Source: Flavobacterium azooxidireducens
GTDB taxonomy: Bacteria > Bacteroidota > Bacteroidia > Flavobacteriales > Flavobacteriaceae
NCBI RefSeq assembly: GCF_023195775.1
Contig: NZ_CP096205.1
Location: forward strand, 2,232,001-2,296,000
Direction: 5' to 3'
DNA length: 64,000 nt
This document shows, piece by piece, positions 17,377-18,822 of the stretch; position 1 is the first letter of the stretch; each line of letters opens with the position of its first letter. The notes beneath the pieces are model-generated. The model was not told the DNA's origin, did no database searches, and was given only the letters and a program-made list of their open reading frames with translations. Both the position numbers and the translations under genes were made by a program.

Positions 17377-17392
17377 ATAATTCATTTTTGAT

Positions 17393-17440
17393 GAGATTGC
17401 TTCGCCAGTTCGCTATCGCTTGTGTCCTACGAAATGACAA
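17393..17440 (-). repeat. Long-form GAGATTGC...AATGACA repeat, copy 1
   Basis: GAGATTGCTTCGCCAGTTCGC, then TATCGCTTGTGTCCTACGAAATGACAA. It is a longer relative of the short repeats that follow and shares their ends (GAGATT..., ...AATGACAA). A homologous copy in the other orientation is at 23185-23249, sharing AGCGAACTGGCG.AGCAATCTC. Confidence 0.72.
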
Positions 17441-17461
17441 TATTGTTGAAAAACTAAGTAT

Positions 17462-17582
17462 GAGATTCCTACGGAATGACAAAATTGCGGGTAATTTTTG
17501 CTAAAGATTACATCAAAGATGTTTCAGAAACTTTTAGTATGCGTAAAGCTCAACGTCTAGTTTGTCATTCCGTAGGAATCTC
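17462..17582. repeat. Composite inverted-repeat element 1, left of the GIY-YIG gene
   Basis: Two inverted copies of a 21-base hairpin repeat (GAGATTCCTACGGAATGAC.. at 17462-17482, and GTCATTCCGTAGGAATCTC ending at 17582) enclose a core of about 79 bases. Each copy has an internal hairpin ATTCC-TAC-GGAAT. The core shares GCGGGTAA, CAGAAACTTTTAG and CAACGTCTAG with the core of element 2 (17998-18115). It ends 32 bases before the GIY-YIG start codon. Confidence 0.88.
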
Positions 17583-17614
17583 AAAATCGATTACTTTTTA
17601 AATTGATTTTTACT

Positions 17615-17926
17615 ATGATTGAATTTACAGAAGGAATTTATACTTTTTACGTTTACATTTTAACAAATAAAAGTAAAACAGTTCTATATACCGGTGTAAC
17701 TAATAATTTGAAATTACGTTTACAACAACATAAAGATAAACTGAATCCAAATAGTTTCACTGCTCGTTACAATACTCATTTTTTGATTTTTTATGAAAAG
17801 TTCGGTTGGATTCAATTAGCAATTGAAAGAGAAAAGGAAATTAAAAACTTATCAAGAGAAAGAAAATTGAATTTGATTAAAGAAATGAATCCTGATTTGG
17901 AATTTTGGAATGATTTTTTTAAGTAG
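17615..17926 (+). CDS. GIY-YIG domain nuclease, single-domain, embedded in palindromic repeats
   Basis: The 103-residue protein consists of little more than one GIY-YIG domain: FYVYILTNKSKTVLYTGVTNNLKLRLQQHK carries the two Tyr motifs and the catalytic Arg, and AIEREKEIKNLSRERKLNLIKEMNP carries the Glu helix. Single-domain members of this group (UvrC N-domain/YhbQ-like) are frequent in Flavobacteriia and mostly uncharacterised. ATG 17615 is preferred over an upstream TTG at 17603. The gene is bracketed by seven near-identical copies of a hairpin repeat and two homologous composite elements, with no other gene inside. By analogy with REP-associated transposases, it may act on these repeats; this is inference. 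Confidence 0.88.
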   Translation: MIEFTEGIYTFYVYILTNKSKTVLYTGVTNNLKLRLQQHKDKLNPNSFTARYNTHFLIFYEKFGWIQLAIEREKEIKNLSRERKLNLIKEMNPDLEFWNDFFK

Positions 17927-17953
17927 TTGATTTCGTAAAGTTCAAGCTTTCGT

Positions 17954-18213
17954 TTGTCATTCCGTAGGAATCTCAATCAAGTAAAGCTAAGTTTTTTAGA
18001 TTCCTACGGAATGACAAGATAGCGGGTAAGCTGTGTTAAAAATTAAACCAAAGATTTTTCAGAAACTTTTAGATTGCGTGTAGCAACGTCTAGTTTGTCA
18101 TTCCGTAGGAATCTCAAGTAAAACAATGTTGCCTTTTTAGATTCCTACGGAATGACAAGATTGCGTTTAAACTGCCGCGGTGAAGTATGATCGAGATTCC
18201 TGCGGAATGACAA
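17954..18213. repeat. Repeat cluster right of the GIY-YIG gene (five hairpin copies, composite element 2)
   Basis: This takes up most of the 305-base gap 17927-18231. Copies of the GTCATTCCGTAGGAATCTC repeat lie at 17954-17974 (forward), 17998-18017 (reverse), 18095-18115 (forward), 18139-18158 (reverse) and 18193-18213 (reverse, with one change, CCTGCGG). 17954-18017 and 18095-18158 each form a 64-base inverted pair able to fold into a long hairpin. 17998-18115 is homologous to the left composite element, including the core words CAGAAACTTTTAG and CAACGTCTAG. The last copy ends 18 bases before the convergent DUF1287 stop. Confidence 0.9.
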
Positions 18214-18231
18214 AATTACGAAAGATTAACT

Positions 18232-18822
18232 CTAATTTTTAGGCTTGTAAGTGTAGTGCCCCACAATCTTCCAACTAAACAAACAATCCTCCAAAACCTG
18301 TCCGCTTCCAACATTGTGCACAATTAAATTGCGTTTTCCATCGGTTGATTTTTTGTGTGTAACAATACCGATGTGCGGAAGTTTGTCGCCAATCATCCAA
18401 GTTACTAAGTCACCTGTTTTATAATCGGAAGCATTATTGGTAATGGTTAATTTTTCTCCTTTTCGTTCAAAAAATACTTCTAAATTTGGAACTCTACGAT
18501 GATCAATATTAGTATCCGGTTTTTTTAATCCCCATTTTTTTAAGTTTGGGTATTTGGAGAAATTCGCTTTCAAATCTTCGTGTAATTCTTTTTGCAAGTC
18601 AATGCCTAATTTCCGATAAGCTCGAATAATTACATCGGTGCAAACTCCTTTGTCTTTTGCCACATCACCGTTTGGATATTTAATACCAACATATGATGGG
18701 TCATAAGTCACTTTATCTTTCGTTAATTCTAAAGCCGCATTAGATAATTTCTGCGAAAAAGAAGTTGGATTAATCGTGAAAATCCAAAGTAATAGAAAAG
18801 AGGGGAGAAGTTGTAATTTCAT
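18232..18822 (-). CDS. DUF1287 domain exported protein (possible cysteine amidase/peptidase fold)
   Basis: The 196-residue protein has an N-terminal signal peptide (MKLQLLPSFLLLWIFTINPTSFSQ). It matches my memory of the DUF1287 family: VTYDPSYVGIKYPNGDVAKDKGVCTDVIIRAYRKLGIDLQ, then DHRRVPNLEVFFERKG and LPHIGIVTHKK with IVHNVGSG. The conserved Cys (GVCTDVI) and His (LPHIGIV) are placed as in NlpC/P60-type Cys-His hydrolases, which suggests a cell-wall or peptide amide substrate; the activity is unproved. It lies divergent from radC, and its 3' end abuts the repeat cluster. Confidence 0.85.
   Translation of the reverse strand: MKLQLLPSFLLLWIFTINPTSFSQKLSNAALELTKDKVTYDPSYVGIKYPNGDVAKDKGVCTDVIIRAYRKLGIDLQKELHEDLKANFSKYPNLKKWGLKKPDTNIDHRRVPNLEVFFERKGEKLTITNNASDYKTGDLVTWMIGDKLPHIGIVTHKKSTDGKRNLIVHNVGSGQVLEDCLFSWKIVGHYTYKPKN

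Follow-up and report, generated by a model that had tools for sequence, protein, structure and literature searches.

A stand-alone GIY-YIG nuclease gene among TGTC/CGTC-tagged hairpin repeats in Flavobacterium azooxidireducens and other bacteria: a candidate REPtron-like system

Described systems of tagged palindromes and the island in the window

REPtrons combine GTAG-tagged REPs with RAYT/TnpA-REP enzymes of the HUH type, and in the sections of Corneloup et al. 2021 considered here (PMC8266576), the gene stays while the repeats spread. Another group of palindromes, the CGTC-tagged REPs, was defined by Di Nocera, De Gregorio and Rocco in 2013 in five phyla, including the neisserial dRS3 (PMC3733652). 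According to the sections of that paper considered here, these repeats occur mostly in alpha-proteobacteria, have stems of 8-9 bp, loops of 4-5 nt and a tail that is mostly CCA, and are apparently without a dedicated transposase; GIY-YIG is not mentioned in the paper, and no associated enzyme gene is reported there. An enzyme for CGTC repeats was likewise not found in the considered parts of two works that cite PMC3733652, namely RepRanger 2025 (PMC12306157) and the 2018 HUH survey (PMC6006769). Among the matches listed in open-licence PMC papers (no preprints), no description was found of GIY-YIG proteins paired with REPs, dRS3 or Azospirillum palindromic repeats.

The window analyzed here, the whole 64,000-nt stretch from 2,232,001 to 2,296,000 of the one-contig, 3.82-Mb genome of F. 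azooxidireducens, contains an island whose sole gene by ORF and Pfam analysis encodes a stand-alone GIY-YIG nuclease (Table 1). An alternative start, TTG at 17603, is possible and would give 107 aa. The protein consists of one PF01541 domain (57.7 bits, cut-off 22.6); no second domain was found, and no NCBIfam model exceeded its cut-off. A group I intron endonuclease model was matched at E 0.01 or better by 36 of 46 aligned members, the window protein scoring 17.7 bits, far under the cut-off of 56.05.

The island repeat is the 19-mer TGTCATTCCGTAGGAATCT, present in seven copies, one of them with one mismatch. It forms an ATTCC/GGAAT hairpin with a 5-bp stem and a 3-nt loop, carries a TGTC tag in 7/7 island copies, and ends in CTCA or CTAA in most window copies; the tagged hairpin, a putative cognate substrate of the nuclease, is given as TGTCATTCCGTAGGAATCTCA. 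When up to two mismatches were allowed, the 13-nt hairpin core matched nine times in the whole window, seven of them inside the island, versus 1.56 on average and at most 6 in 100 shuffles. At the left edge, the stem of an eighth, divergent TGTC-tagged element holds a longer insert. The segment 17463-17549 is 84% identical to 17998-18084, and 17542-17584 also matches 18075-18117, so that each side of the gene holds one direct copy of a roughly 120-nt unit. The left-core 13-mer CAGAAACTTTTAG was confined, among 403 fetched loci, to loci covering the window island. No terminator-like site was detected in the island by a simple scan. The first-pass annotation had described the seven repeat copies with their orientations, two homologous cores flanking the gene, and a single-domain GIY-YIG gene as the only gene of the island, all of which were located in the sequence.

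Table 1. Coordinates of the island and its neighbors (positions within the window)
Feature	Position	Strand	Basis or remark
Mur-ligase gene, left neighbor of the island	ends 17376		
Island, presence/absence block	17377-18231		about 0.85 kb, Mur-ligase gene to DUF1287 gene
Divergent eighth TGTC-tagged element, TGTCATTTCG...GCAATCTCATC	about 17390-17439	-	island left edge; read from sequence
Repeat copy 1	17463-17481	-	exact TGTCATTCCGTAGGAATCT
Left core, between repeats 1 and 2	17482-17562		84% identical to right core region
Repeat copy 2	17563-17581	+	exact; ends 34 nt before ATG; tag away from gene
Stand-alone GIY-YIG nuclease gene	17615-17926	+	ORF, PF01541; 103 aa from ATG
Repeat copy 3	17955-17973	+	exact
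Repeat copy 4	17998-18016	-	exact
Right core, direct duplicate of left core	18017-18095		sequence comparison
Repeat copy 5	18096-18114	+	exact
Repeat copy 6	18139-18157	-	exact
Repeat copy 7	18194-18212	-	one mismatch
DUF1287 gene, right neighbor of the island	18232-18822	-	

Throughout the genome, 31 sites matched the 19-mer within three mismatches (21 exactly; reversed control, 0), with 7 in the island and 24 outside, scattered between unrelated genes. Eight copies in the same orientation form an array without a GIY-YIG gene (L037, G000:C1:3204829-3206423; 3.2048-3.2064 Mb), and the remaining sites are singles or groups of two or three. The window repeat is interspersed in that array with another, CTTTGCGTCTTTGCGACTTTGCGAG-like repeat. 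The genome encodes four stand-alone GIY-YIG genes and two GIY-YIG domains inside long proteins; in the 4 kb around each of the three other stand-alone genes, no copy of the 19-mer with up to five mismatches was found.

The window repeat and CGTC REPs are alike in their terminal tag (CGTC/TGTC/CCTC, being TGTC in the window), in a stem starting with AT, in intergenic dispersal and in inverted pairs. They are unlike in stem (5 bp in the window versus 8-9 bp), loop (3 nt versus 4-5 nt) and tail (CTCA versus mostly CCA), and because of these three departures the window repeat was not filed as a strict member of the CGTC family. It works like a CGTC REP, and its nuclease clade is common to loci with strict members.

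A REPtron and the window system share a stationary enzyme gene bordered by tagged palindromes, dispersed non-autonomous repeats, and co-variation of enzyme and repeat; in the window genome, the gene is bordered by repeats and few-copy, and the repeats are dispersed. The GTAG tag of REPtrons is, however, replaced by TGTC/CGTC, and their HUH/Y1 enzyme by a PF01541 protein. Since the GIY-YIG enzyme is unrelated to HUH, no covalent strand-transfer chemistry of the HUH type is expected. GIY-YIG enzymes are not known to form a covalent intermediate, and hence an HUH-like strand-transfer route would be closed to the nuclease alone. IS200/IS605 and window-type elements both have hairpins at the two ends and no target-site duplication, but the former use a Y1 transposase and the latter a hydrolytic GIY-YIG nuclease, in a unit of 0.35-0.55 kb. 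From the sequence comparisons we consider it likely that the island is REPtron-like, that is, a stand-alone GIY-YIG gene embedded in its cognate TGTC/CGTC-tagged hairpins, whose nuclease would cut the hairpin and thereby spread the repeats.

Association of one GIY-YIG clade with tagged hairpins

Relatives of the nuclease were found at 1e-8 in 163 of 299 Flavobacteriaceae genomes. The family set of 110 loci and 121 genes was taken from the upper part of the matches listed; it omits matches weaker than about E 2e-20 and, higher in the list, at least G007:C7. A first hairpin scan, which required near-exact short stems, failed at most loci, since bulges are frequent in the stems; a tag search replaced it. 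The tag [C/T]GTCAT occurred within 250 nt on both sides of 57 of the 116 distinct family genes, on one side of 39 and on neither side of 20, as compared with 1, 13 and 53 of 67 size-matched controls (ORFs of 80-160 aa from twenty 20-kb stretches, one from each of 20 family-set genomes). Tag density was 5.59 per kb near family genes versus 0.63 in intergenic DNA of the 20 stretches. For a control GIY-YIG clade, seeded by another GIY-YIG gene of the window genome, tags within 300 nt were present on both sides of 1, on one side of 5 and on neither side of 24 of 30 genes. The earlier proposal that the repeats cluster around GIY-YIG genes held for the clade of the island nuclease, and not for the control clade or for the three other stand-alone genes of the window genome; repeats are also found at a distance from any GIY-YIG gene, 24 of 31 own-genome sites being outside the island. 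Genes of the control clade are often paired, adjacent genes starting about 0.3-0.4 kb apart and mostly without tagged hairpins (L257/L273, L259/L274, L275/L281, L260/L276, L270/L277, L269/L278, L279/L282).

The signal is concentrated next to the gene. Within 100 nt of the gene, the string TGTCATT was counted 57 times on the upstream side (120 windows) and 60 times on the downstream side (119 windows), and it dropped to 1-6 per 100-nt bin at 700-1000 nt. Secondary peaks at 500-700 nt upstream (17 and 19) and at 1100 nt downstream (19) are suspected to stem from arrays and from loci with several nuclease copies. A motif-free comparison of 7-mers near to and far from the genes of 99 loci recovered GTCATTC (42 near, 7 far), TGTCATT (49, 15) and TTGTCAT (40, 9). 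The arms pair with each other despite their differing sequences: 109 of 434 tags had an own complement of 8 nt or more, versus 8.7 expected. Where the stem had at least 5 bp (238 tags), the tail read CCA in 89 cases and CTN in 106. Rfam yielded only hits below gathering scores, mostly to miRNA families, which were taken as hairpin noise.

A genome scan with the Azospirillum lipoferum protein gave 224 confirmed stretches, the best 80 of which made up a many-phyla set; because of this query, the set favors CGTC-type forms. It includes alpha-, beta-, gamma- and deltaproteobacteria, Planctomycetota, Anaerolineae, Nitrospirota, Cyanobacteria, Omnitrophota, Bacteroidota and Patescibacteria, among others, although many of the loci are metagenome-assembled bins whose taxon labels may be wrong. 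Tags lay within 250 nt on both sides of 45 genes, on one side of 25 and on neither side of 10 (one of the 80 genes, kept in the count, gave a 24-nt frame), versus both sides in 6 and one side in 26 in the far flanks at 1500-1750 nt. The string GTCATTCC was near the gene in 45 and far from it in 2 of 65 loci. In a second density test, limited to non-coding DNA, the many-phyla set gave 11.49 versus 2.81 tags per kb and the control clade 0.16 versus 0.88; the family set gave 9.30 versus 5.41, a 1.7-fold excess only, in a figure weakened by a crude ORF mask and by multi-copy loci that were kept. The pairing of this GIY-YIG clade with tagged hairpins is real and wide.

Variant hairpins stand beside several of the inspected genes that have no standard tag within 250 nt (20/116 in the family set, 10/80 in the many-phyla set). 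Six such loci (L137, L145, L153, L155, L158, L127) have ATTCCTGCGNANGCAGGAA-like hairpins instead and are possibly a tag-less subfamily; similar flanking coding sequence is common to L127, L145, L153 and L158. A tblastn search of plasmids returned 32 records, and six of the 10 fetched loci had standard tags, while three of the remaining four had variant hairpins of the CCTC, CGTCGC or GTCACC type; no hairpin repeat was seen at the Rhizobium tumorigenes plasmid locus. The nuclease locus of Sinorhizobium meliloti has a CCTC-tagged repeat, and that of Novosphingobium aromaticivorans the CGTCGC variant. On a Planktothrix plasmid (L167), the nuclease copy has an MmeI-type restriction gene on one side and the DISARM gene drmA on the other.

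Many tagged repeats around nuclease relatives are textbook CGTC-tagged REPs. In Azospirillum lipoferum, which is listed as a host of CGTC REPs in the considered part of PMC3733652, the GIY-YIG gene lies inside textbook CGTC repeats; in strain 4B it is enclosed by two pairs of CGTCATCCCCGCGAAGGCGGGGATCCA-type repeats, with an 8-bp stem, between sufB and sufC. The element, at L164:2360-2930, splits this gene pair.

A recurrent unit of 0.35-0.55 kb, made of an upstream repeat and an inverted downstream repeat, each within 150 nt and with tags outward, was found at 72 genes (66 distinct) out of the 201 in both sets. The nearest repeat within 200 nt pointed its tag outward upstream in 52 of 71 family and 42 of 59 many-phyla cases, and downstream in 45 of 72 (P 0.04) and 40 of 52. 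The stem differs among loci and is often the same on both sides of the gene; mixed pairs occur.

Co-variation, presence or absence, and signs of copying

The repeat was expected to co-vary with its nuclease, and it did. The 8-nt 5-prime arms were compared among the 107 of 145 distinct genes that had two tags or more; arm similarity climbed with nuclease identity from 0.57 at 30-40% to 0.95 above 95%. The correlation was modest (Spearman 0.27; 0/500 permutations) and similar in 5245 cross-genus pairs (0.28; 0/500). Of 24 genes that share their genome with a diverged paralogue, 15 favored co-variation, with a mean difference of 0.10 toward the repeat of the nearest nuclease elsewhere (Wilcoxon P 0.005).

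The window repeat, with at most one mismatch, is present in 30 of 150 Flavobacterium genomes. It is much more common where a close nuclease is present: all eight genomes of the close nuclease subfamily carry it, as compared with 22 of the remaining 142 (Fisher test with the window genome excluded, 5.6e-6). Genomes with a 77-100% identical nuclease have 27 (G000), 23 (G359), 18 (G436), 6 (G365), 5 (G366), 5 (G363) and 4 (G354) copies, and G311, with a broken nuclease copy in pieces about 82% identical or more, has 16. G435 also holds 27 copies, its best nuclease being 66% identical and bordered by other hairpins. Orphan-type repeats occur in G338, G438 and G326 (10, 9 and 8 copies; nucleases of only 44-52% identity), in G345 and G323 (6 and 5 copies, no nuclease match at 1e-10) and in G381 (8 copies, no nuclease among the matches listed).

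The comparison of orthologous loci that the first-pass annotation had called for showed the island to be present or absent as a whole. The DUF1287 gene was detected at 1e-30 in 53 of 150 Flavobacterium genomes. Among the best 30 of these 53 loci, the Mur-ligase/DUF1287 site holds the nuclease gene with tags in three and a gap of 5-285 nt with neither in 24, and three were not comparable; G365, outside the 30, is a fourth case with the nuclease and both neighbors. The nuclease adjoins the Mur-ligase gene in 6/8 subfamily genomes and in 0/22 other fetched loci. A repeat copy between yihY and nadC was absent in 15/15 relatives examined. With the gene fixed beside the Mur-ligase gene and the repeats scattered, the repeats spread and the gene stays in the window lineage. 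Elsewhere the nuclease is multi-copy, with up to eight homologue matches per genome and tandem units in L143 and L163. L143 (G255:C1:832813-840555) holds four nuclease copies and repeats in about 5 kb, apparently by tandem amplification of the gene plus its flanks. The whole Azospirillum block is absent from A. ramasamyi, A. oryzae, A. sp. B510 and A. argentinense (4/4 fetched relatives); the sufB-sufC gap, compared with these four, and the gap between yihY and nadC have diverged too far to define an empty site to the nucleotide, and one more site, where the flanks were only partial, was left aside.

No target-site duplication above chance was found in 66 distinct simple elements (2 nt, 5 versus 4.5 expected; 3-7 nt, none; 8 nt, one), and T was preferred immediately outside the tag (left 40/66, right 33/65). 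Direct flank duplicates of at least 60 nt were present at 45 of 107 family loci, versus two inverted ones and 1/99 in the far control; in the many-phyla set, 10 direct and 4 inverted duplicates were seen in 80 loci, versus 0/71 far. Four loci holding several genes were omitted from this test. Half-repeats, consisting of an extra tag and 5-prime arm on the tag side of a complete repeat, were found in 17 cases, a few of them marginal matches, at 12 of 207 distinct loci (L186, L189, L192, L197, L214, L221, L227, L242, L243, L084, L090, L403). Symmetrical search windows gave no extra copy of the 3-prime arm and tail after a complete repeat in the 207 loci. L403 was read in the opposite strand here, with no effect other than an exchange of its upstream and downstream labels. 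We infer from this polarity that breakage occurs at or near the loop and is followed by renewed copying from the tag side.

The hairpins might instead be terminators or mRNA stabilizers spread by other means, with the gene merely landing in repeat-rich intergenic DNA. The dispersal of own-genome repeats between unrelated genes and the orphan repeats in genomes without a matching nuclease would agree with this, but size-matched genes of 20 same genomes and the other GIY-YIG clade do not have the tag association, the nearest repeats within 200 nt are oriented tag-outward, stem sequence tracks nuclease sequence, the entire block is missing in relatives, and the simple scan showed no terminator-like site in the island. 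We regard this explanation as improbable.

Candidate functions of the nuclease and their meaning

The solved structures closest to the nuclease are those of UPF0213, YhbQ-like GIY-YIG proteins, and of the branched-DNA nuclease Slx1. Conserved residues are Y14, Y25, G27, R35, H39, E73, K77 and N92, and the hallmark residues Y14, Y25, R35, E73 and N92 are kept in 98-99% of 185 sequences. In contrast to UPF0213/Slx1, R81, K84 and L87 are almost invariant among the 185 aligned relatives; in three own-genome control proteins, position 81 is G/G/S and position 84 is K/F/Y. Slx1 acts together with Slx4, whereas no partner gene was seen at the window locus. The island nuclease is under purifying selection, with a dN/dS of 0.03-0.08 against three orthologues. 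The Slx1-like fold, this strong selection and the repeat close upstream of the start codon would suit a domesticated repair or genome-hygiene nuclease that trims REP cruciforms and is co-located with them for autoregulation, through a hairpin in its own leader. Such a host function would leave unexplained the rise of repeat number with the nuclease, the multi-copy patchy distribution and the absence of the block from most compared relatives, and we hold it to be as improbable as the passive landing of the gene among repeats.

A HUH (Y1) transposase of the IS200/RAYT type could move the repeats, the GIY-YIG nuclease being a secondary processor; Y1_Tnp matches number five in the window genome, and 105 of the 299 family genomes have some. 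The hairpin excess over a reversed control, however, followed the nuclease and not Y1. Its median in the 299 genomes was 17 in the 163 nuclease-positive and 3 in the 136 negative ones (P 4.5e-12, uncorrected for phylogeny, the genomes not being independent), and the second largest excess (131) was that of G094, a genome without a nuclease match. Medians with and without nuclease were 14 and 4 in genomes without Y1 (P 1e-7) and 19.5 and 1 in genomes with Y1 (P 3e-5), and Y1 presence had no effect in either nuclease class (P 0.19 and 0.90). Two of the five own-genome Y1 loci were inspected (L398, G000:C1:180452; L399, G000:C1:1680150), and no TGTCATTCC repeat was found within 700 nt of either. 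L399 has two upstream CGTCATCTACTTC strings, neither of which starts a hairpin of the window type. L398 is bordered by a different hairpin, CCGACTTCAGTCGG; with this hairpin of its own, two unrelated enzyme-plus-hairpin systems may coexist in the genome. In the considered sections of PMC3733652, moreover, no CGTC repeat flanks RAYT or IS200 genes. We therefore judge mobilization by Y1 to be very unlikely.

Least probable of all is a homing-type selfish gene, for which element-free alleles would be cut and repair would copy the island in, the hairpins being by-products or regulatory: free-standing GIY-YIG genes can be homing enzymes, most aligned members match the intron endonuclease model (the window protein far under its cut-off), and the gene keeps one genomic site in the window subfamily, but homing predicts neither repeats dispersed without the gene, nor the tags that accompany genes at unrelated locations across many phyla, nor multi-copy tandem forms (L143, L163), and the protein is one GIY-YIG domain with no second domain found.

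The REPtron-like reading remains the one we prefer. It had been proposed at the outset that the nuclease acts on a cognate REP-like repeat of its own, in parallel to RAYT although its fold is unrelated; the sequence tests agree with that proposal, with the qualification that repeats also lie far from GIY-YIG genes. The mechanism, including hairpin cleavage, the cleavage site and cleavage-driven spread, is put forward as a well-supported hypothesis. The nuclease most likely recognizes both the tag and the hairpin in its folded form, as TnpA-REP (RAYT) does with a GTAG-tagged hairpin, and would nick or break the DNA there by hydrolysis. The repeat DNA would then be copied or rejoined by host replication or repair, which may expand arrays beside the gene and seed single repeats and pairs elsewhere, while the nuclease gene itself could stay at one site for long periods.

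Beyond this island, we lean on balance toward the view that the GIY-YIG clade provides the missing dedicated enzymes of CGTC/TGTC-tagged REPs across bacteria. It would be a second REPtron of independent chemistry: a structure-specific nuclease would open the hairpins by hydrolysis, in the loop or close to it, and would drive copying with a tag-side polarity that leaves half-repeats on that side only. With the clade found within tagged repeats in many phyla, the question of a CGTC-REP transposase is now testable at the bench. If this view is true, repeat systems made of an enzyme and a hairpin have had at least two origins, chemically unrelated to each other, and many genes annotated only as GIY-YIG nuclease family protein would gain a likely substrate. 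A very small structure-specific nuclease with subfamily-specific hairpins would also become available.
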